Below, one piece after another: positions 10,114-22,098 of a stretch of 33,448 nt of DNA. The DNA is from Chthoniobacteraceae bacterium. GTDB taxonomy: Bacteria; Verrucomicrobiota; Verrucomicrobiia; Chthoniobacterales; Chthoniobacteraceae. The stretch lies in NCBI GenBank assembly GCA_028714515.1, contig JAQTMF010000008.1, forward strand, positions 1 to 33,448, in the 5' to 3' direction. Positions within the stretch are counted from its first letter, which is position 1. Each line of letters begins with the position of its first letter. Made by a program: the position numbers and the translations under genes. A model generated the notes under the pieces. The model was not told the origin of the DNA, searched no databases, and was given only the letters and a program-made list of their open reading frames with translations.

Positions 10114-10128
10114 GGCGGCGATCCCCTA

Positions 10129-10144
10129 AGCAACCGGTATGCCA
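10129..10144 (-). promoter_or_regulatory. Sigma-54 (RpoN)-type promoter upstream of flgB
   Basis: Minus-strand TGGCATACCGGTTGCT matches TGGCAyr-N4-TTGCw with exact GG/GC -24/-12 spacing. Confidence 0.75.
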
Positions 10145-10727: not shown

Positions 10728-11549
10728 TCAGCGCCGCTGTTTGTAACAGACGACCCGGCCAAACAGGGCCCGCTCGTAGTTGTCGTCCAGGTTCATGGTG
10801 GTCTCGGCGTTGCCCAGGAAGAGGTAGCCTTCGGGCGACAGGACGGTGCGCACTTTGCCAAGGATGGAGCGCTTGGTGGCTACGTCAAAGTAGATCATGA
10901 CGTTGCGCAGGAGCACGAGATCGCACTTGGGCAGGAACGGCCACGGCTGGACGAGGTTCATTTCGCGGAAGTCGACCATGTTGCGGATGTCTTCGCGGAC
11001 TTCCCACATGGCGGCGCGTTCCCGGAAGTATTTGACGAGCAGGGGCGCGGCCAGCCCCCGGTTGACTTCCATCTGGCGGTAGCGGCCCGCCCGCGCCCGT
11101 TCGAGCACTTCTTCGTTGATGTCGGTGGCGATGATCCGCACGTTCCAGTTTGCCACGGCCGGGAAGCATTCGCGCAGGAGGATGGCGACGCTGTAGGGCT
11201 CCTGCCCGGTGGAGGCCGCGCAGCACCAGATGGTCAACTGCCGCTGGGGAGCGCGCAATGCGATCAGCTCCGGGAGAACCGAGTCGCGGAGGACTTCGAA
11301 GGGGTAGATGTCGCGGAAGAAGGACGTTTCGTTGGTCGTCATGGCGTCGACGATCTTCCAGTGGATGTTGTTGACGGGCTGGAATCGCACGGCGTCGATC
11401 ATCCTGGCGATGGTGTCGAAGCCTTCGGCGCGGGCGACGGGTTCCAGGCGCGAGTCCACGAGGTATTCCTTCCCGGTTTCCAATACCAGCCCGGCCAGTG
11501 AATGGAGCAATGTCTGCAAGTATTGGAAATCCGAGAGGGTTATGGCCAT
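10728..11549 (-). CDS. cheR: Chemotaxis protein methyltransferase CheR
   Basis: NETSFFRDIYPFEVLRD, LTIWCCAASTGQEPYSVAILLRE, RIIATDINEEVLERARAGRY, FDLVLLRNV-like CDLVLLRNVMIYFD. Confidence 0.96.
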   Translation of the reverse strand: MAITLSDFQYLQTLLHSLAGLVLETGKEYLVDSRLEPVARAEGFDTIARMIDAVRFQPVNNIHWKIVDAMTTNETSFFRDIYPFEVLRDSVLPELIALRAPQRQLTIWCCAASTGQEPYSVAILLRECFPAVANWNVRIIATDINEEVLERARAGRYRQMEVNRGLAAPLLVKYFRERAAMWEVREDIRNMVDFREMNLVQPWPFLPKCDLVLLRNVMIYFDVATKRSILGKVRTVLSPEGYLFLGNAETTMNLDDNYERALFGRVVCYKQRR

Positions 11550-12661
11550 AGATTGGGCTCCTTGTCGCGTTGGGGAAAATGCCGGGAGGGCGTTGGGGTG
11601 CGTCCCAGGTGAACGCGTTTGACGATTTCGGCGGGAATCTGCTGGAGCGGGAGCACGGCGTTGGCAAGGCCTCCGCGCGCCACGAAGCCGGGCATGCCCC
11701 AGATGACGCTGGTGGCTTCGTCCTGGGCGAATACGTCGCCTCCGGCGTTTCGGATCAGTTCGCTGCCGCGGAATCCGTCGCGCCCCATGCCGGTGAGGAC
11801 GACGCCCAGCACGTGGCCGCCGAAGGCTTCGACGGCCGACCGGAAGAGGACATCGACCGAGGGGCGGCAGGAGTTCTCGGGCGGGCCCTTGGTGGTTCTG
11901 ACGATGGCGTGCCCTTCCTGGCGGCAGACGGTGAGGTGAAAGTCGCCCGGCGCGATCCATACGCCGCCGGGGCTGAGGTGCTCGCCGGGCTCGGCCTCTT
12001 TCACCCAAATGCCGGACATGGCGCTGAGGCGGTCGGCAAGGAGTTTGGTGAAGACGGGCGGCATGTGCTGCACGACGAGGATGGGCACGGGAAGGTCCGC
12101 CGGAAGCGCGGGCATCAGTTTGACCAGGGCGTCGGGGCCGCCGGTGGAGACGCCGATGACCACGACGTCGATCCGGCTGGGCTCGCGAAGCGGCTTTGGA
12201 AGAGGAGCGGGCGCCGCGGGCGGGCGGGCGGGCTCGTGGAGGACGGACGGTTTGACGCCGCAGAAGTGCTTGATCTTGGGGATCAGTTCGCGGCGGAGCC
12301 GGTCGAGGGCTTCGCCGACTCCGCCGACGTTCGCCGGTTTGGTGACATAGTCGGTCGCCCCGGCGGCGAGCGCGTCGAGGGTGGCCAGAAACCCGCGCGC
12401 GGTGACGGTGCTGAACATGATCACCGGCAGGCGGAAGTGGGTTTTGCGTATTTGCCTCAATGTCTCCAGGCCGTCCATTTCCGGCATTTCGACATCGAGT
12501 ACGACGGCGTCGGGCTTTAGTTGCCCGAGTTTTTCGAGGGCGATGCGGCCGTTCGCGGCCACTCCAATGACTTCCAGGTCGGGATCCGCATTCAGCGTAT
12601 CCGTGACAAGCCGCCGGATGACGACGGAATCATCCACTACGAGAACGCGGGCTTTCGGCAT
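11540..12661 (-). CDS. cheB: Chemotaxis response regulator protein-glutamate methylesterase CheB
   Basis: REC domain (VLVVDDSVVIRRLV) plus methylesterase (VVVIGVSTGGPDALVKLMPALPADLPVPILVVQHMPPVFTKLLADRL; VVLTGMGRDG). Confidence 0.97.
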   Translation of the reverse strand: MPKARVLVVDDSVVIRRLVTDTLNADPDLEVIGVAANGRIALEKLGQLKPDAVVLDVEMPEMDGLETLRQIRKTHFRLPVIMFSTVTARGFLATLDALAAGATDYVTKPANVGGVGEALDRLRRELIPKIKHFCGVKPSVLHEPARPPAAPAPLPKPLREPSRIDVVVIGVSTGGPDALVKLMPALPADLPVPILVVQHMPPVFTKLLADRLSAMSGIWVKEAEPGEHLSPGGVWIAPGDFHLTVCRQEGHAIVRTTKGPPENSCRPSVDVLFRSAVEAFGGHVLGVVLTGMGRDGFRGSELIRNAGGDVFAQDEATSVIWGMPGFVARGGLANAVLPLQQIPAEIVKRVHLGRTPTPSRHFPQRDKEPNLWP

Positions 12662-12669
12662 TCAGAAAA

Positions 12670-13038
12670 CTATACGCTGATGCCGAGGATCGCGAGTTTG
12701 TCCCGGATGATGTCGGCGGTGAACGGTTTCATCACGTATTCGTTCGCTCCGGCATCCAGGGCCTTGGTGATCTGCCCCACTTCGGACTCCGTGGTGACCA
12801 TGACGATCTGCACTTTGTCGTAGGCGGTATTGGCGCGCACGGCTTGCACGAATTCGTAGCCGTTCATGTTGGGCATGTTCCAGTCGGCCAGAATCAGGTC
12901 GGGGGCGCCGTGTTCTTCCAGCCGGGCCAGCCCTTCCTGGCCATCGCCCGCTTCAAAGGTTTCAAAGCCGATTTCGCGAATGATCCTTCCGATGATCATC
13001 CGCATGCTTCTGGAGTCGTCTATTATAAGTGCGCGCAT
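12670..13038 (-). CDS. cheY: CheY-type single-domain response regulator
   Basis: MRALIIDDSRSMRMIIGRIIREIGFE...LILADWNMPNMNGYEFVQAVR...MVTTES...ANEYVMKPFT. Confidence 0.93.
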   Translation of the reverse strand: MRALIIDDSRSMRMIIGRIIREIGFETFEAGDGQEGLARLEEHGAPDLILADWNMPNMNGYEFVQAVRANTAYDKVQIVMVTTESEVGQITKALDAGANEYVMKPFTADIIRDKLAILGISV

Positions 13039-13046
13039 AGGGTGGG

Positions 13047-15338
13047 TTAGTTACGTGAATATTCAGGGTTCGAAAGGGAGGGCATTTCCAGGGCGGCCGC
13101 CGGGCTCGCGTGGTGGCTCCGCGTTCCGGGCTGGGCTCCGCTCTGTTCGAAGTTGAACTCGCCGAGGAGGTGGTTGAGTTCCGCGGAGAGCCGCGAGAGT
13201 TCCTCGGCGGCGCGCAGGGTTTCGTTGGCCACGGCGGTGGTCCCCGCCGCTTCCCGCGCGACGCCCGTGATGTTTTGCGCGATTTCCGAGCTGCCTTTCG
13301 ACGCTTCGGCCAGGTTGCGGCTCATCTCGTTGGTGGTGGCGCTTTGCTCTTCCACGGAGCTGGCGTTGCACGTCTGGATGTCGTTGATCTGGTTGATGGT
13401 CGCGCTGATCTTGGTGATCGCCGCGACGGCTTTTTTCGTGGCCTCCTGGATGGTGCCGACCTTCTCGCCGATGTGTTCGGTGGCTTTGGCTGTTTCTTTG
13501 GCCAGTTCCTTGACTTCGTTGGCGACGACGGCGAACCCTTTGCCCGCTTCCCCGGCGCGCGCCGCCTCGATGGTGGCGTTGAGGGCGAGGAGGTTGGTCT
13601 GCTGCGCGATGGAGGTGATGACTTTGATGACTTCGCCGATTTCTCCGCTGCTCTGCCCGAGTTCGGCGATGGTGTCGTTCGCCGCCGTGGCGATCCGCAC
13701 CGCGCCTGCCGCCACGGCGACGGCTTCGTTGGTGTTTTTGGCGATTTCGCGGAAGCTCGCGGTCATTTCTTCCGCGCCGGTGGCGACGGTCTGGACGTTC
13801 GCGCTGACTTCCTCGCAGGCGGCGGCGACGACGTTGGCTTGGGCGGCGGTTTCCTCGGCGTTGGTGCCGAGTTTCTGGCTGACGGTGGTCAGCTCTTCGG
13901 AGGAGATCGTCAAGGCCATGGCGTTTTGCGCGATTTGCCGCATGGCCGCGCTGAGTTTCTCCAGCATTTGGTTGAAGGCGGCGGCCATCTGGCCGACTTC
14001 GTCGTGCGTGTGGGCGGGGAGGCGCATCCGCAGGTCGCTTGTCTCAAGCATTTTCACGGTCTGCGCCAGCGGGCGGCAGATGCTCTGGGCGACGCCGTGC
14101 CCCACGAGCGCGGAGATGCCGGCCATGCACAGGGAGGTCACGATGACCCACCAGACGGTGTTTCGGAGGCCGTCGGAGGTTTTGCCCACCGAGGCGATCA
14201 TTTTGCCGGTGGAGGTCTCCAGCAGCTTTTGCGCTTCGATCAGTTCGTCTTCGTAGCAGCTCACGCCCACCACCCAGCCGCGCTCTTTGTAGTAGGAGAC
14301 CATGGAGAGCTTGGCGCGGTCGCGGGCGTCGCCGGGCTCGCGCCAGTTGTAGCGGACGAGGACGGGGGCGCCGTCTTTGGCGGCCATGGCTTTTTGCGCG
14401 AGGTCCTGGATTACCAACCGGCCTTCGCCGTCTTTGGTGTTCCAGATGTCTTCGCCGTTGCGTTTGTTGCCCCGCGATAGGAGGTAAAGGCCGCGCTCCT
14501 GCCCTTGCGTTCCGATGATGTAAAGGTTGCCCGTTTTCGCGACGTTGATTTTGCCCAGCGATTCGCGGATTTGATCGTCCTTTTCCGCGACGTTGCTGCC
14601 GACGAAGAGCATCCCGATGATCTTCGCGCGCGCGCTGTCCCAGACGGGTTCGTAATACCCAAGGTGCCATTTGCCGACGAGGAAGCTCGGGCCGAAATAG
14701 GTTTCGCCTTTGAGCACTTCTTCCAGGATGGGATCTCCCGTGCCGTCGGGATGGCGGCGCGGAATGTACGTTCCCGTGGCGCGCTGGCCTTCGCTGTTGG
14801 TCAGCGAGGTGCAGATCCGCACCATGTCGCCCTCTTCGTTCATCCGCTGGAAGAGGGTGCAGTGATCCCGGGTGGCGTGCCAGACGTAATCGACCACCGG
14901 CGACGGCGCTTTCGGATCGCCGTTGGGCTCGATCCAGGTGGCTCCGGCGAACATCTTGGGCAAGGAGAGGGTGACGGCGGACCGGGTCATCTGGTTGACG
15001 CACCTCCATTCCTGCTTCTCGTTGCCCAGCGAAAGCGGCCCGAGCGCGGCGATCTGCTCTTTGGCGATGCCGACGTTGTATTGCACCCGCTTGTAGGTGT
15101 TCAGGTCGGTCGTCGCGATGAGGTCCATCGCGATCTGGCTTACTTTTTCCAGCTCGACGGTGGTCGTTTCGCGGAGTTTGGCCGCCACCGTTTCGTTGGT
15201 GCCGCGAATCTCTCCTCCCAGGGATTTGATGTCGCGGTTCATCTCCGCCTGACGGAGAGCCAGGAGCCCGACGATCACGGCGGCGGTTGCCGCGGTAAAC
15301 AGGACGCCCAGCGCGGTGATCTTGGTCTGGATGCGCAT
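13047..15338 (-). CDS. Methyl-accepting chemotaxis protein with Cache-type periplasmic sensor
   Basis: TM ([22 protein letters not shown]), Cache_3/Cache_2-like ectodomain, HAMP, signalling tip [41 protein letters not shown]; start placed at MRIQTK rather than upstream ORF start 15521, which overlaps the neighbouring MCP. Confidence 0.92.
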
Positions 15339-15369
15339 AGGATGAAACGCTGCGGACAAGACCGGTTTC

Positions 15370-18171
15370 TTAGCGGTGCTGCGTGCGGTCGGCGTGGAAT
15401 ACCATCGCGGGCTCTTTGGCGGCGGCGAGGTTTCCACGGCCGTTGCCGCCATGGAATCCCGCGCCGTTTGCGGAGCCGTTGGATGCGGCCTCGGGACGGG
15501 CGCTTGCCGGGCCGCCCGCATCGAGTTTGAACTGCTGCACGACGCGCATCAGTTCCGAGGCCAAACGCGCCAGTTCGCTGGCCGCGGAGGAGGTGCTCGT
15601 GGCGGCCTCCGTGGAGTTTCTCGCGACTTCGGAAACGCTGAGGATGTTCTTGGCGATCTCGCCGCTGCCCGCGGCCGCTTCGTTGACGTTGCGCGACATC
15701 TCCCCCGTCGTCGCGGCCTGTTCCTGCACGGCGCTGGAGATGGCGGTCTGGATTTCGTCGATCTGGCCGATGATCCGCCCGATTTCCGCGATGGCTTTTA
15801 CGGCGGCGGCGGAGTCTTTCTGGATCGTACCGATTTTATCGGCGATGTCGTTGCTGGCCAGCGCGGTCTGACGGGCCAGTTCCTTGACTTCGTTGGCGAC
15901 GACGGCGAAGCCTTTGCCCGATTCCCCGGCGCGCGCCGCCTCGATGGTGGCGTTGAGCGCGAGGAGGTTGGTCTGCCCGGCGATGGTGGTGATGACTTTG
16001 ATGATGTTGCCGACCTCGGCGCTGCTCTTGCCCAGTTGCCCGATGGTTTCGTTGGTCTTGTTGGCGAGCGTGACGGCGTCGCCCGCCACTTTGGAGGCGT
16101 TGTTGGTCTGCTCGGCGATTTCCTTGACGCTGGAGCTGAGTTCCTCCGCGGCGGTGGCGACGGTGGCGATGTTCCGCGAGACTTGCTCCGCCGCCGCGGC
16201 GACGGCGTTCGCCTGGGCCGAGGTTTCCTCCGCGTTGGAGCTGACTTGCGAGCTGACGGCGCTGAGTTCATGCGAGGAGCCGCTCAACGAGTCGGCATGG
16301 GCCCGGACGCCGAGGAACATTTTGCGCAGGTTCGCGCCCATGCCGTCCATCGCTTCGGCCAGTTCGCCCAGTTCGTCGCGGCGGTTGAGTTCCAGCCGCC
16401 CGGTGAGGTCGCCTTCGGCCATCCGTTTGGCGAAGGCCATCCCCATGCTGGTCGGCTTGACGATGGAGCGCGTCATGGAAATGGAGAGGACGGCGCTGAC
16501 GATGGAGCCGATCAACAGGGCCAGGACGGTGATGAACTTGGAGCTGGAGATGACGCTCGTGACGGCGGAGACTTTGTCGTCGGAGCCTTTCCACGCGTCG
16601 CTGGCCGCCGATTGGGCGGTTGCGATGACGGCCTGGCTCAAGCGCGTGACTTCGGGGAGGATGGTCTTGCGGACGCGCTCGCTGTTTTCCGCCCACGATT
16701 TGACGGCCGTCTCAAAGGCTTCCACGCCGTTGGCAGCTTCCTCGATGTGCGCCTGGTCTTCGCTGGCTGTCGCGATTTTCCGCAGTTCGTTTATTCCCTT
16801 TTTCACCCGGTCCAGGCTGGCCGCGTATTTGTCCCAGTTTTCCTGGGAGAAGTTGGCGGTATACAAACGGATGTAGTATTTTACGTAGAGAACGTCCTCG
16901 GCGATGGTGCTGACCATCCGCAGTTGTTTCAAGGAGTCGCCGGAAAGCCGTGCCTCTTCGGCGAGATATTCCGCGGTGCTTTGGGCCACGGCGTCGCCGT
17001 CGCGCATCATCGCGTCGTTGACGCTCTTTTTTTGCTGATCGAGCGCGACCCATGTTTTGACGGCTTCCAGGTAGCTGTTGGCCGCGGTTTCGACGGTGTC
17101 GATTCCTTTCCGGTCGTGGTCTTCGCCGACTCGTTTTTTCAGCTCTTTGCAGTATTTGAGGAGCTGTTCGGCGTTCTCTGTGACGCCGTTGAAGTTGGCG
17201 TCCGTCGCGTCCAGCTTGCACTTCGCGGCGTAGGTGTTGGCGGCGTTGATGGACTCGGCGATTCCTCTCCCGGCGGTTATCAGATCAAAGCTGTTTTTGC
17301 GGGCGGCGTCGTTCGCGGCGGAGCGGTAGTCGCCTTCCTTGTCTTTCACAAATTCGCCGTAAACGCTGAGGATCGCGGCGTATTGTTTTTCCATGATGGC
17401 GTCTTGCGCGGCGGCCTGTTTTTCCAGTTCGCTCCATTTCTTTAGCGATCCGAGAAAGCTCTGGGTGGAGGCGCGCACGTCGCCGACGAGTTTGGTCTCC
17501 GTCGCGGTCGGGGTGATTTTCGTGGCTTCGTCGCAGGCGGCCAGGACGGCCGCGACGCTTTTGCCGGCGGCGTCAAAGTAGCGCGGTTCCTTGTAGGCGA
17601 CGTATTGCTGGGCGTTCAGGCGCGCGTCAAGCGCCAGCATGTCGACGCGGTTCCCGAGGGCCAGGCACTTGGTGTCGTCTCCATAGGCGCTTTCTTTTGC
17701 CGCTTTGTAGTCGTCGGCCACTTTGCCGATGGCGTTGCCTTTCTCATACCTTATGGCGGCGGTATCGCGGAGGACCTTGAGGGATGCCGCTTCTTCCTCG
17801 AATAATTTCTTCCATTTCTCGCAGATGCCGCGCACTTCTTTGGATTTTCCCACCAACTGGGTGTCGTTGGTTTCCGAGGCCAGGGCGTCCATTCTGCCCA
17901 GGTTGCCCATGAGGTCGGCGATGGCTTTGTCCACTCTGTCCCGGGCTTCAAGCCCCTGGTTTTCCTCTGTATACTCCGCTTGCGCCGCCAGGGATGCGAT
18001 GGCCGCCCGCTCCACTGCTGTGCTATGGCGTACGGCGGGAAGGGACTGGTTGCTTTGTGTGTGCACTTCTCTCGCAAGGAGGCCGAACATGAAGTAGGCG
18101 GTGACGCCAAGCACTGCGGTGACGAGCATGACGCCGCCAAAGCCGAGACCGATTTTTTTGCCGAGTTTCAT
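15370..18171 (-). CDS. Methyl-accepting chemotaxis protein with very long all-helical (HBM-like) ectodomain
   Basis: 933 aa; TM1 [25 protein letters not shown], ~520 aa helical region, TM2 [25 protein letters not shown], tip [41 protein letters not shown]. Confidence 0.92.
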
Positions 18172-18210: not shown

Positions 18211-18660
18211 TCAGCGGCCGGTGGTGGCGCTTTTCGCTTTTTCGAAATGCAAGACGGCTTCGGTGTTGAGAACCAGGAGCAGGCGGTCTTCCAGTTTGTA
18301 GACGCCCTGGATCAGATCGCGGGTGCGGCCGTGGACGGTGTCGGGCGGTTCTTCGAAGGCGCTGTCGTCCACTTCGATGACGTTGTCGATGTCGTCTACG
18401 AGGAGGCTCACGGAGCCGTCCGTGGTGTGGAGGACGACGTTCATGGGGAGGCGCCCTTCGGGGAGGGGGGCTAGGTTCAGCAGCCGCCGGACGTCGATGG
18501 CCGTGACGAGTTGCCCCCGCAGGTTGATCAAGCCGCCGATCACGGGGGGCGCGAGCGGGACGCGGGTCATCGCCTGGTGGCGCACGACTTCCTGGACGAG
18601 GGAGACCTCGACGCCGAAGAGTTGGCCGTCCAATAGAAAGACGCAGAACTGGCGGGTCAT
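18211..18660 (-). CDS. cheW: Chemotaxis coupling protein CheW
   Basis: FCVFLLDGQLFGVEVSLVQEVVRHQAMTRVPLAPPVIGGLINLRGQLVTAIDVRRLL; ATGA overlap with cheA. Confidence 0.93.
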   Translation of the reverse strand: MTRQFCVFLLDGQLFGVEVSLVQEVVRHQAMTRVPLAPPVIGGLINLRGQLVTAIDVRRLLNLAPLPEGRLPMNVVLHTTDGSVSLLVDDIDNVIEVDDSAFEEPPDTVHGRTRDLIQGVYKLEDRLLLVLNTEAVLHFEKAKSATTGR

Positions 18661-20753
18661 CGGGGGGCCTCCGGCGAAAGGGTTTTCTCCGAGGCGCGGA
18701 TGATGGCGGGCACGTCGAGGAGGTCGGTGACGCGGTCTTGGATGACGGCGGAGCCGAGAGTCCAGGTGTGCCTGGCGGAGGTTTGCATGACGACGTGCTC
18801 GCTGGTGATGTCGCGGATGCGGCCGACAACCAGGCCGACGTTGCGCCCGTTTTCGTTGTAGACGACGGCCTGGAGCGTGCCGTCGTGCGGCGCGGCGCTT
18901 TCGTCGGCGCTGGAGAAGAAGGAGGAGGCGCGGATGAGGGGAAGGATTTTCCCGCGGTACTGGATGACTTCCCGCCCGCCGGCCCATTCGATGTCTTTGC
19001 TCTGGAATTCCTCCAGCCGCGCGACGGTGGAGAGCGCGATGGCCATGCGCTGCGATTCGCTGAGGTCGAAGAGGAGAAGCGTTTGCCGGCCGCCGTCCGC
19101 CTCGTGGTGCTGGGCGGGGTTGGCGGCGGGCAGGCTGGCGTGGCCGGCTCCGATCAAGCCGCCGCGCTGGGCCAGCCCGAAGACGTCGAGGATGAGCGCG
19201 ACCGCGCCGTCGCCCATGATGGTCGCGCCCGCGAAGCAGGCGGTGCCTTTCAGATGGCTGCCGAGCGCTTTGACGACGATTTCCTCCGTGTCGCACACTT
19301 CGTCCACGACGAGGCCGAACCGCCGTTCGCCGGTTTGGAGGACGACGACGTCCACCGCGCCCGCGTCGCCCGCTTGCACTTGCAGTTCGCTGCCGAGGTA
19401 GACCAGCGGGAGCAGTTCGCCGCGCAGCCGGTGCACGGGCGCGCCCTGGATGTGCTCGATGGATTTCGCTTCGTCCAGCCGCACGAGTTCCGTTACGCTG
19501 ACTTGCGGGATGGCATACCGGTCGCCGCCGCACCGGACGATCAAGGCGGGGATGATCGCGAGGGTGAGCGGGATTTTGATTTTGAAGGTGGTGCCGGCGC
19601 CGGGCTGGCTTTCGCATTCGACGGAGCCGCCGATGCGCTCGATGTTCGTTTTGACGACGTCCATGCCGACGCCGCGCCCGGAGATGTTGCTGACGGTTTC
19701 GGCGGTGGAGAAGCCGGGGGCGAAGATCAGGGAGATGGCGTCGCGGCTGGAGAGATGCGCGGCGGCCTCGGCCGTCAGCATGCCCCGCTCGATGGCTTTG
19801 GCTTTTACGCGCTTGATATCGACGCCCGCGCCGTCGTCGGCGATCTCGATGTTGACCTGGCCGTTTTCGTGGAAGGCCCGCAAGGAGAGGCGGCCTTCCG
19901 GCGGTTTTCCGCTTTTCGCGCGCTCCGCCGGGGCGCCGATACCGTGGTCGACGGCGTTGCGCAGGAGATGGGTGAGCGGGTCTTTGATCGCCTCGATGAT
20001 GGTGCGGTCCAGCTCGGTTTCCTCGCCCGACATTTCCAGCCGCACTTGTTTGTGGCAGGTCTGCGCCAGGTCGCGAACGATGCGGGGGAATTTGCCCCAG
20101 ACGTTGGAGATTGGCTGCATCCGCGCTTTCATGACACCCGCCTGCAGCTCGGTGGTGATGAGATTCAGACGCTGCGCGGCCGCCAAGAAGGACGGGTCCG
20201 CGCAGGGGGCCTGCAGGATCTGGTTGCGCGCGAGGACCAATTCGCCCGCCAGATTCATCAGCCGGTCCAAAAGAGATACGTCTACCCGGACGCTGGTCTC
20301 GGAGACGTTTTGCGTGCGCGCGTCGGGGGCTTCGGCCGCCTCGGGCGCTTCCGCCGGGGCGGGGGCTTCCGGCACGGCGGTTCCCTCCCGCAGCCGCGAG
20401 AGGGCCGCGATGAGGTCCGCGTCGTCGGCGTCGCCTTCCGTGCCTGCCGTCTCCATGCTGCCGAGTATCCGGCGGACGGCGTCGACGGTTTGCAGGAGGC
20501 TGGTGGTGAGCTGCGGGATGACGGTGAGTTTGCCGTCGCGCAGGTCGCTCAAGAGGCTTTCCGCGGCGTGGGTCACGGCCTCCAGCTTGGGCATGGCGAG
20601 GAAGCCGCTTCCTCCCTTGATGGTGTGGACGGCACGGAAGATCGCCGCCAGGGTCTCCGGGGAGGGGGCGCTCTCCAGGCTCACCAGTTCCCGGTCGAGG
20701 AGATCAAGGTTCTCGTGTGTTTCGATGATGAATTCTCTGAGGATGTCGTCCAC
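18657..20753 (-). CDS. cheA: Chemotaxis histidine kinase CheA (P1-P3-P4-P5 plus a second CheW-like domain)
   Basis: HPt AIFRAVHTIKGGSGFL; VSLLDRLMNLAGELVLARNQ; DPLTHLLRNAVDHGI; ISGRGVGMDVVKTNIERIGGSVECESQPGAGTTFKIKIPLTLAIIPALIV. Confidence 0.96.
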   Translation of the reverse strand: MDDILREFIIETHENLDLLDRELVSLESAPSPETLAAIFRAVHTIKGGSGFLAMPKLEAVTHAAESLLSDLRDGKLTVIPQLTTSLLQTVDAVRRILGSMETAGTEGDADDADLIAALSRLREGTAVPEAPAPAEAPEAAEAPDARTQNVSETSVRVDVSLLDRLMNLAGELVLARNQILQAPCADPSFLAAAQRLNLITTELQAGVMKARMQPISNVWGKFPRIVRDLAQTCHKQVRLEMSGEETELDRTIIEAIKDPLTHLLRNAVDHGIGAPAERAKSGKPPEGRLSLRAFHENGQVNIEIADDGAGVDIKRVKAKAIERGMLTAEAAAHLSSRDAISLIFAPGFSTAETVSNISGRGVGMDVVKTNIERIGGSVECESQPGAGTTFKIKIPLTLAIIPALIVRCGGDRYAIPQVSVTELVRLDEAKSIEHIQGAPVHRLRGELLPLVYLGSELQVQAGDAGAVDVVVLQTGERRFGLVVDEVCDTEEIVVKALGSHLKGTACFAGATIMGDGAVALILDVFGLAQRGGLIGAGHASLPAANPAQHHEADGGRQTLLLFDLSESQRMAIALSTVARLEEFQSKDIEWAGGREVIQYRGKILPLIRASSFFSSADESAAPHDGTLQAVVYNENGRNVGLVVGRIRDITSEHVVMQTSARHTWTLGSAVIQDRVTDLLDVPAIIRASEKTLSPEAPR

Positions 20754-20780: not shown

Positions 20781-20807
20781 CCATCGGCAAGGGGGGCGGA
20801 AACTTTA
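20781..20807 (-). promoter_or_regulatory. Sigma-28 (FliA)-type promoter for the cheA operon
   Basis: Minus strand TAAAGTTT-N11(CCGCCCCCCTT)-GCCGATGG; consensus TAAAGTTT-N11-GCCGATAA. Confidence 0.85.
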
Positions 20808-20830
20808 GAAAAAAAATCGGAATTTTTTCC

Positions 20831-20857
20831 TAAAGAAACATCCAATCCCGCCGATTT
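20831..20857 (+). promoter_or_regulatory. Sigma-28 (FliA)-type promoter for the REC-CheX gene
   Basis: Plus strand TAAAGAAA-N11(CATCCAATCCC)-GCCGATTT. Confidence 0.75.
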
Positions 20858-20910
20858 AGAAGAAGGCGGCGGATGGCTCTGTGTATATAGCTATCCGCCA
20901 TTTTTTCGGC

Positions 20911-22098
20911 ATGAGAGTCCTGATCACAAATTACAGTTCCGCTTCGCAAACCGTCCTAAAGGCCGTGATGATTAAGCTCGGGCACAAGGTCGAGGTGGTC
21001 GGCGACGGCAAAGCCGCCCTCGCCAGCCTCGAGCTTCCCGCCGGGCCCAAATTGGCGATTTTGGATTCCTACCTGCCCGGCATGGACGGCTTTGAGGTCT
21101 GCCGCAAGATCAAGGCGGCGCCCGACTCGAAGGTTTCCGTCATCCTAATGACGCGGGAGAACGACCGCACCGAGGTGCTCAAGGCGCTCGACGCGGGCGC
21201 GGATGATTACCTGCAAAAACCGTTCGACGCCACGGAGTTGACCGCGCGCCTGCGGATCCTGGACCGCGAATCCGCCAAACGCCAGCAGTTGGCGGAGCAG
21301 GCTGCCGGCGGCGGGGCGGCGGCTCCCGAGGCGGACGGCTCGTCCGAGGCCCCGGGCTCCCCGCGCGCGAAGGAGAAAACGCGGAAGCTCTTTACGGACA
21401 ATATGCAGGATCTCAATACGCTGGGGGCTTTCTCCCACTTTGAAAACCTGATGACCAAGGTCTTTGCCGACATGGGCCTGGGCGAGGCCTCGGTGCTGGA
21501 CGCGGACAACACCGCCATCGACGCGGAGTTCAGTATCCTCTCGGTGCTGGTCCTGCCGGAGAAAACGGCGTGGCTGGACATCGTCCTCGAAATGGACCGC
21601 GCCTCGGCGCACGCGCTTTTCAAGACGATGACGGGCTCCCCGGAGGAATCCCGCGATGAGCTGGTGGATATGGCGGGCGAGGCGTTGAACATGATTATGG
21701 GGGCCATCAAGTCGGCGCTCCAGGAGGGCTACATCGACGTGCTGACGCCGGTGATCCCGTTCAAGGTTCCGCCGGAGAAGCGGGAGAAGTTCTCGTTCAT
21801 CTCCACGGAATGCAGCCAGCATGCCTTCTCGCTGCCCGGCATTACGATGCGCGTCACGATTTTCCCGCACATTACTTCCGTCGTTACCAAGACGCTCGAC
21901 GACATCAAGGTTCGCGATGTGACGATCTCGCCGGTGAAGCTGCCGGGAAGCCCGAAGTTGCTGTTGCTTAACAAAGGAACGATGGTGAACGACAACCATC
22001 TGCGGCGGTTGCGGGAAATGACGGGATGCGGTTTTATCAAAGTAAAATTCGACATGATCTCCCCCTCCCAGATCAGCGCATGCACAGTAAAGGTATAG
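20911..22098 (+). CDS. Response regulator receiver + CheX-like phosphatase domain fusion, with extra C-terminal segment
   Basis: REC: MRVLITNYSSASQTVLKAVMIKLGHKVEVVGDGKAALASLE...LAILDSYLPGMDGFEVCRKIK...ADDYLQKPFDATEL; CheX-like: ELVDMAGEALNMIMGAIKSAL (E-x-x-N-x-x-x-G catalytic motif); an alternative GTG start lies at 20881. Confidence 0.85.
   Translation: MRVLITNYSSASQTVLKAVMIKLGHKVEVVGDGKAALASLELPAGPKLAILDSYLPGMDGFEVCRKIKAAPDSKVSVILMTRENDRTEVLKALDAGADDYLQKPFDATELTARLRILDRESAKRQQLAEQAAGGGAAAPEADGSSEAPGSPRAKEKTRKLFTDNMQDLNTLGAFSHFENLMTKVFADMGLGEASVLDADNTAIDAEFSILSVLVLPEKTAWLDIVLEMDRASAHALFKTMTGSPEESRDELVDMAGEALNMIMGAIKSALQEGYIDVLTPVIPFKVPPEKREKFSFISTECSQHAFSLPGITMRVTIFPHITSVVTKTLDDIKVRDVTISPVKLPGSPKLLLLNKGTMVNDNHLRRLREMTGCGFIKVKFDMISPSQISACTVKV

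Follow-up and report, generated by a model that had tools for sequence, protein, structure and literature searches.

Back-to-back sigma-28-type promoters between cheA and a REC-CheX gene in a Chthoniobacteraceae bacterium

We analysed a stretch of 33,448 nucleotides (hereafter the window) from a flagellar/chemotaxis contig of a Chthoniobacteraceae bacterium. The window has a GC content of 65%, and the genome it comes from spans 3.24 Mb in 340 contigs and is approximately 93% complete. On the minus strand, cheA opens a same-strand run that continues with cheW, two chemoreceptor (MCP) genes, cheY, cheB and cheR. A gene whose product combines a receiver-like and a CheX domain (REC-CheX) is divergent from cheA, across a gap of 157 bp. 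Both sigma-28-type boxes lie inside this gap, and the two flanking genes stand at distances that match the two promoters. The features are as follows.

10127..10144, minus strand: sigma-54-type -24/-12 site TGGCATACCGGTTGCTTA, directly before flgB (start 10113)
10728..11540, minus strand: cheR, start approximate; Pfam CheR_N and CheR in frame 10728-12008
11540..12661, minus strand: cheB; Pfam Response_reg and CheB_methylest
12670..13038, minus strand: cheY; Pfam Response_reg
13047..15521, minus strand: chemoreceptor (Cache_3-Cache_2, HAMP, MCPsignal); true start possibly internal to the frame
15370..18171, minus strand: chemoreceptor (HBM, HAMP, MCPsignal; Pfam)
18211..18666, minus strand: cheW, start approximate; Pfam CheW at residues 323-457 of the longer frame 18211-19617
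18657..20753, minus strand: cheA, GTG start at 20753; Pfam Hpt, H-kinase_dim, HATPase_c and CheW
20781..20807, minus strand: sigma-28-type promoter for cheA, 11/11 core match
20808..20830, no strand: A/T-rich block between the two TAAAG boxes, common to both promoters; candidate UP-element/alpha-CTD site
20831..20857, plus strand: sigma-28-type promoter for REC-CheX, 11/11 core match
20868..20906, plus strand: terminator-like hairpin, past the plus promoter and ahead of the REC-CheX ATG
20911..22098, plus strand: REC-CheX gene, 395 aa, ATG start at 20911; receiver-like domain, then CheX domain with ExxN (GEALN)

The promoter on the cheA side consists of the -35 box TAAAGTTT (20807-20800), the 11-nt spacer CCGCCCCCCTT and the -10 box GCCGATGG (20788-20781). 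Its counterpart on the REC-CheX side has the -35 box TAAAGAAA, the spacer CATCCAATCCC and the -10 box GCCGATTT (20850-20857). The two -35 boxes face each other, 23 bp apart. An earlier reading made from the DNA letters alone (the sequence-only reading) had described these paired boxes with exact 11-nt spacing, and re-reading both strands bore this out. The boxes are not simple copies of those of E. coli: the -10 boxes, GCCGATGG and GCCGATTT, agree with GCCGATAA at only 6/8 bases. The -35 box of the minus site is of the E. coli type, whereas that of the plus site differs from the E. coli TAAAGTTT and recurs in two flagellin promoters of this genome.

We defined a local consensus core of 11 bases, TAAAG-N14-GCCGAT, and asked how often it occurs. 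The window contains it only at these two sites, and none of 100 dinucleotide shuffles gave as many matches (shuffle maximum 0). There are five perfect cores in the whole genome (3.24 Mb), against two for a reversed-pattern control: the present pair, two before flagellin genes, and one within a reading frame on contig C53. The E. coli consensus is less suited to this genome. In its strict form with three mismatches it yields 7 matches against 21 in the control, which is uninformative except that the cheA site ranks best. This site is also the best match in the genome to the full 16-base E. coli consensus, which misses the plus site because of its TAAAGAAA -35 box.

The sequence-only reading had made a fliA gene in the genome a check on its promoter assignment, and this gene is present. 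It encodes a protein of 265 aa (L003) that matches the FliA/WhiG model TIGR02479 with 222.7 bits (cut-off 189.6), in the neighbourhood flhF-fliA-motA, where the flhF-like and motA-like frames were recognised by eye. Two perfect cores on contig C15 (G000:C15:8025 and 9052) lie 145 bp upstream of flagellin domains. The cluster includes a third flagellin, whose core agrees at 10/11 bases and lies equally far upstream, and another 10/11 site (C15:3503, minus strand) precedes a small open reading frame followed by fliS. Flagellin genes in genomes across the order (G035, G021, G147, G002, G003, G016, G014 and G007) carry 9-11 of the 11 core bases, positioned 119-152 bp before the flagellin match, whereas the reversed control mostly reaches 6-8. 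Since the motif is shared with flagellin promoters throughout the order, it is validated independently of the cheA/REC-CheX spacer. The gene for FliA and the recurrence of the motif at flagellin promoters, in this genome and in its relatives, thus uphold the assignment of the boxes to sigma-28, and the pair very probably represents real sigma-28 promoters.

The flagellin genes have two further features of their own. A block, GGTGAGGYCAGxCACC ... TGGCCCG ... GCGAC-CGGA-GTCGC, recurs between the promoter and the start codon in nine distinct leaders of flagellin genes, drawn from six genomes. The leader (G000:C15 L157, L158 and L159; L247, L261, L262, L251, L253, L255 and L265; alignment A1) is approximately 90 nt long, and its first helix is variable and covarying, with both sides changed in 6/7 pairs. 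A hand-drawn structure pairs in 86.6% of the cells, and in at most 49% when slid, in a small set of sequences on which the structure was also drawn; the shuffle control does not amount to a probability. A pseudoknot GGYCA:UGGCC is possible. The leader has no match in Rfam at E values up to 1; it appears conserved and structured, and is a candidate for a new regulatory RNA. Behind the first flagellin gene (L151:7327-7895) there are three tandem copies of 189 bp, 98% identical, each with a strong intrinsic terminator.

Between the two promoters of the chemotaxis spacer, positions 20803-20835 form an imperfect palindrome (CTTTAGAAAAAAA / TTTTTTCCTAAAG). The sequence-only reading had reported it, and it is real, with one mismatch; it is accounted for by the -35 boxes, which point towards each other, together with the T-tract on the 5' side of either box. 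Read from 5' to 3', each promoter has a T-tract and a C before its -35 box, i.e. CGATTTTTTTTC-TAAAG and CGGAATTTTTTCC-TAAAG. The palindrome is therefore best read as two modules of T-tract and TAAAG placed head to head. An A/T run of at least five bases occurs within 25 bp upstream of the -35 box in 14/16 flagellin promoters, against 4.4% of random 25-mers, although the random 25-mers come only from this genome, which is GC-rich, perhaps more so than some of the relatives. Such a run is usual in the clade, which fits the earlier suggestion that the A/T tracts act as shared UP elements. The A/T block would probably be contacted by the C-terminal domains of the alpha subunits, whichever of the two polymerases they belong to.

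The leader of REC-CheX contains the terminator-like hairpin. Its stem, GGCGGATGGCT (20868-20878) with AGCTATCCGCC (20889-20899), has 11 pairs including one G-U, and encloses a loop of 10 nt. An A and then T6 (20901-20906) follow the stem, which leaves four bases up to the ATG at 20911. Its fold z-score is modest (-1.8), and neither the spacer nor the hairpin has a match in Rfam. The terminator scanner misses it because of the 10-nt loop, but our own hairpin scan detects it. A total of 10 such hairpins occur across 89 kb of the genome, and those on the flagellin contig are mostly just behind flagellin genes, whereas this one stands in front of REC-CheX and not behind a gene. The stretch from the hairpin to the ATG has no Shine-Dalgarno sequence and no room for a further promoter; a Shine-Dalgarno sequence is also missing from several genes of the window. 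The hairpin may either attenuate REC-CheX or protect its 5' end, the U-run then aiding initiation. This hairpin is the main obstacle to assuming that the two units are co-expressed equally. The sequence-only reading had proposed that one compact node co-expresses the cheA operon and REC-CheX: both units do have sigma-28-type boxes, but equal expression of the two is doubtful.

The same reading had called REC-CheX a putative phosphatase. Its CheX domain scores 35.0 bits with Pfam CheX (gathering score 27), and Response_reg is also above its cut-off. The catalytic ExxN motif is retained, as GEALN aligned with GELTN / GEITN of solved CheX/CheC-like members, in keeping with the earlier proposal; the REC-CheX proteins encoded beside cheA in relatives have it as GEIVN / GEVVN. 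The receiver part keeps the phospho-Asp, the Thr and the Lys, but its Mg-binding acidic pair is lost, replaced by N-Y (ITNYS), and the domain does not qualify as a functional receiver. The receiver domains of the relatives are degenerate at other positions. Hence, the motifs suggest that REC-CheX is probably a pseudo-receiver-CheX phosphatase. The contigs G012:C2 and G010:C11 encode second REC-CheX-like paralogues, L210 and L213, in which ExxN is lost (QLVKTLKE), and these are probably non-catalytic.

The sequence-only reading had named conservation of the boxes in relatives with the same gene order among its checks, and three such relatives lack them. These genomes, G006, G007 and G010, represent a different genus of this family. 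Their cheA and REC-CheX genes are likewise divergent, separated by 315, 392 and 131 bp, and none of the three has a core of at least 9 bases upstream of cheA. They carry instead TGGCACCGGAACTGCTTA, TGGCACTGGATCTGCTGA and TGGCACCAGACCTGCTGA before cheA, whose pattern, TGGCAC-N5-CTGCT, has the -24/-12 layout of sigma-54. RpoN is present in all three and in the genome studied here. Because the relatives show a sigma-54-type site in their place, we take the missing boxes as a sign of lineage-specific control rather than as a refutation. The control of cheA and REC-CheX apparently differs between lineages, and the simplest reading is that the promoter class of the che operon changed between the two genera. 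The site directly before flgB in the window suggests that hook-basal-body genes such as flgB are under sigma-54 class II control. The spacers L207, L211 and L212 of the three relatives combine the sigma-54-type site before cheA with repeated TTGTCAC(CCGAAA) elements, which are possible enhancer-binding sites. A genome of the same genus (G035) has a FliA that is 82% identical and flagellin promoters of the type described here. We found neither REC-CheX nor a close cheA in this assembly (90% complete, 30 contigs), and the organism is possibly flagellated without this chemotaxis system.

Back-to-back sigma-28 promoters are already known. The fliC and fliD promoters of E. coli depend on FliA. In the spacer between these genes (strain K-12, NC_000913.3), the boxes TAAAGGTTGTTTTACGACAGACGATAA on the fliC side and TAAACTTTGCGCAATTCAGACCGATAA on the fliD side also face each other. 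Both loci place a pair of FliA-type boxes in a single spacer, between two units that are late in E. coli and predicted to be late here. They differ in the distance between the -35 boxes, 92 bp in E. coli and 23 bp here, and in the genes served, filament genes there and chemotaxis genes here. The motAB-cheAW operon of E. coli is a FliA-dependent class III chemotaxis operon. It resembles the present locus in the late transcription of cheA by sigma-28, which is a prediction here, but lacks the coupling to a divergent phosphatase gene. REC-CheX shares the aligned ExxN motif with the CheX family (PF13690; solved members 3iic, 3h2d and 6vpw) and, unlike the solved members, has a receiver-like domain without the acidic pair in front of its CheX domain. 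We found no description of this promoter arrangement in the open-access literature. The pair is thus a compact example, at chemotaxis genes, of a known arrangement.

We give a probability of roughly 0.85 to the reading in which the gap holds two divergent FliA promoters and a shared A/T block, both transcription units are late, and the hairpin tunes REC-CheX. Active FliA holoenzyme would start transcription leftward at about 20773, into the run headed by cheA, and rightward at about 20864, into REC-CheX. The A/T block would probably be bound by the alpha C-terminal domains of whichever polymerase is engaged. Both units would then be late (class III) genes, expressed alongside the flagellins, while flgB-type genes look sigma-54-controlled. 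The rightward transcript would meet the hairpin about 4 to 42 nt past its start, and the level of REC-CheX would probably be lower than that of the kinase operon, or tuned separately from it.

The two promoters are not equally well matched. When sites are scored with a matrix built from flagellin promoter sites, the plus site reaches 26.5, on a par with the genome's own flagellin promoters (25.0-27.2), whereas the minus site reaches only 14.8, because its spacer CCGCCCCCCTT is GC-rich. At a threshold of 14, simulated sequence scores higher approximately five times per 2 Mb and strand. There is thus more doubt about the cheA promoter than about its partner. These scores would suit a situation in which only the plus site is a strong sigma-28 promoter and the cheA side is weak, the operon being driven mainly from elsewhere. 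We regard this as quite unlikely, since the minus site combines a perfect core with an E. coli-type -35 box, is preceded by a T8 tract, is separated from cheA by only a short leader, is the genome's best match to the full E. coli consensus, and lies in a spacer in which we looked for a sigma-54 or sigma-70 site and found none. The palindrome, an inverted repeat with 13-bp arms at the centre of the spacer, could alternatively be the operator of a dimeric regulator of both genes, its likeness to -35 boxes being secondary. This is very improbable: the arms consist of -35 boxes and T-tracts that also precede palindrome-free flagellin promoters, the relatives have no copy of the palindrome, and an operator leaves the -10 boxes at exact spacing unexplained. 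We dropped it as unnecessary.

The hairpin itself admits another reading, namely that it is a true intrinsic terminator, that most transcripts end as an RNA of approximately 42 nt, and that REC-CheX is expressed by read-through or antitermination only. The 11-pair stem with its T6 tail and the membership in a class found mostly behind flagellins on the flagellin contig speak for this. Yet the fold score is modest, and a gene with neither a promoter nor a Shine-Dalgarno sequence after the terminator would be nearly silent; the hairpin could instead protect the 5' end while its U-run helps initiation without a Shine-Dalgarno sequence. We therefore find termination possible but, on balance, rather doubtful. 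The reading with two FliA promoters and a hairpin that tunes REC-CheX can be extended, speculatively and with low confidence, to a divergent asymmetric node with a shared A/T block and an attenuated phosphatase side, which took the place of a sigma-54 promoter, or vice versa. If this were true, the ratio of kinase to phosphatase would be set after initiation, and chemotaxis would have moved from the middle to the late flagellar genes in this lineage.

These results show that the recognition sequence of FliA can be read from a draft genome, and that it points to a late regulon of flagellins, the fliS region, the cheA operon and REC-CheX. They also provide a candidate case of promoter replacement: cheA and REC-CheX are divergent in both genera, and the pair appears to depend on sigma-54 in one genus of the family but on sigma-28 in the bacterium studied here. 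Should the hairpin attenuate REC-CheX, a single node would set the dosage of kinase and phosphatase.
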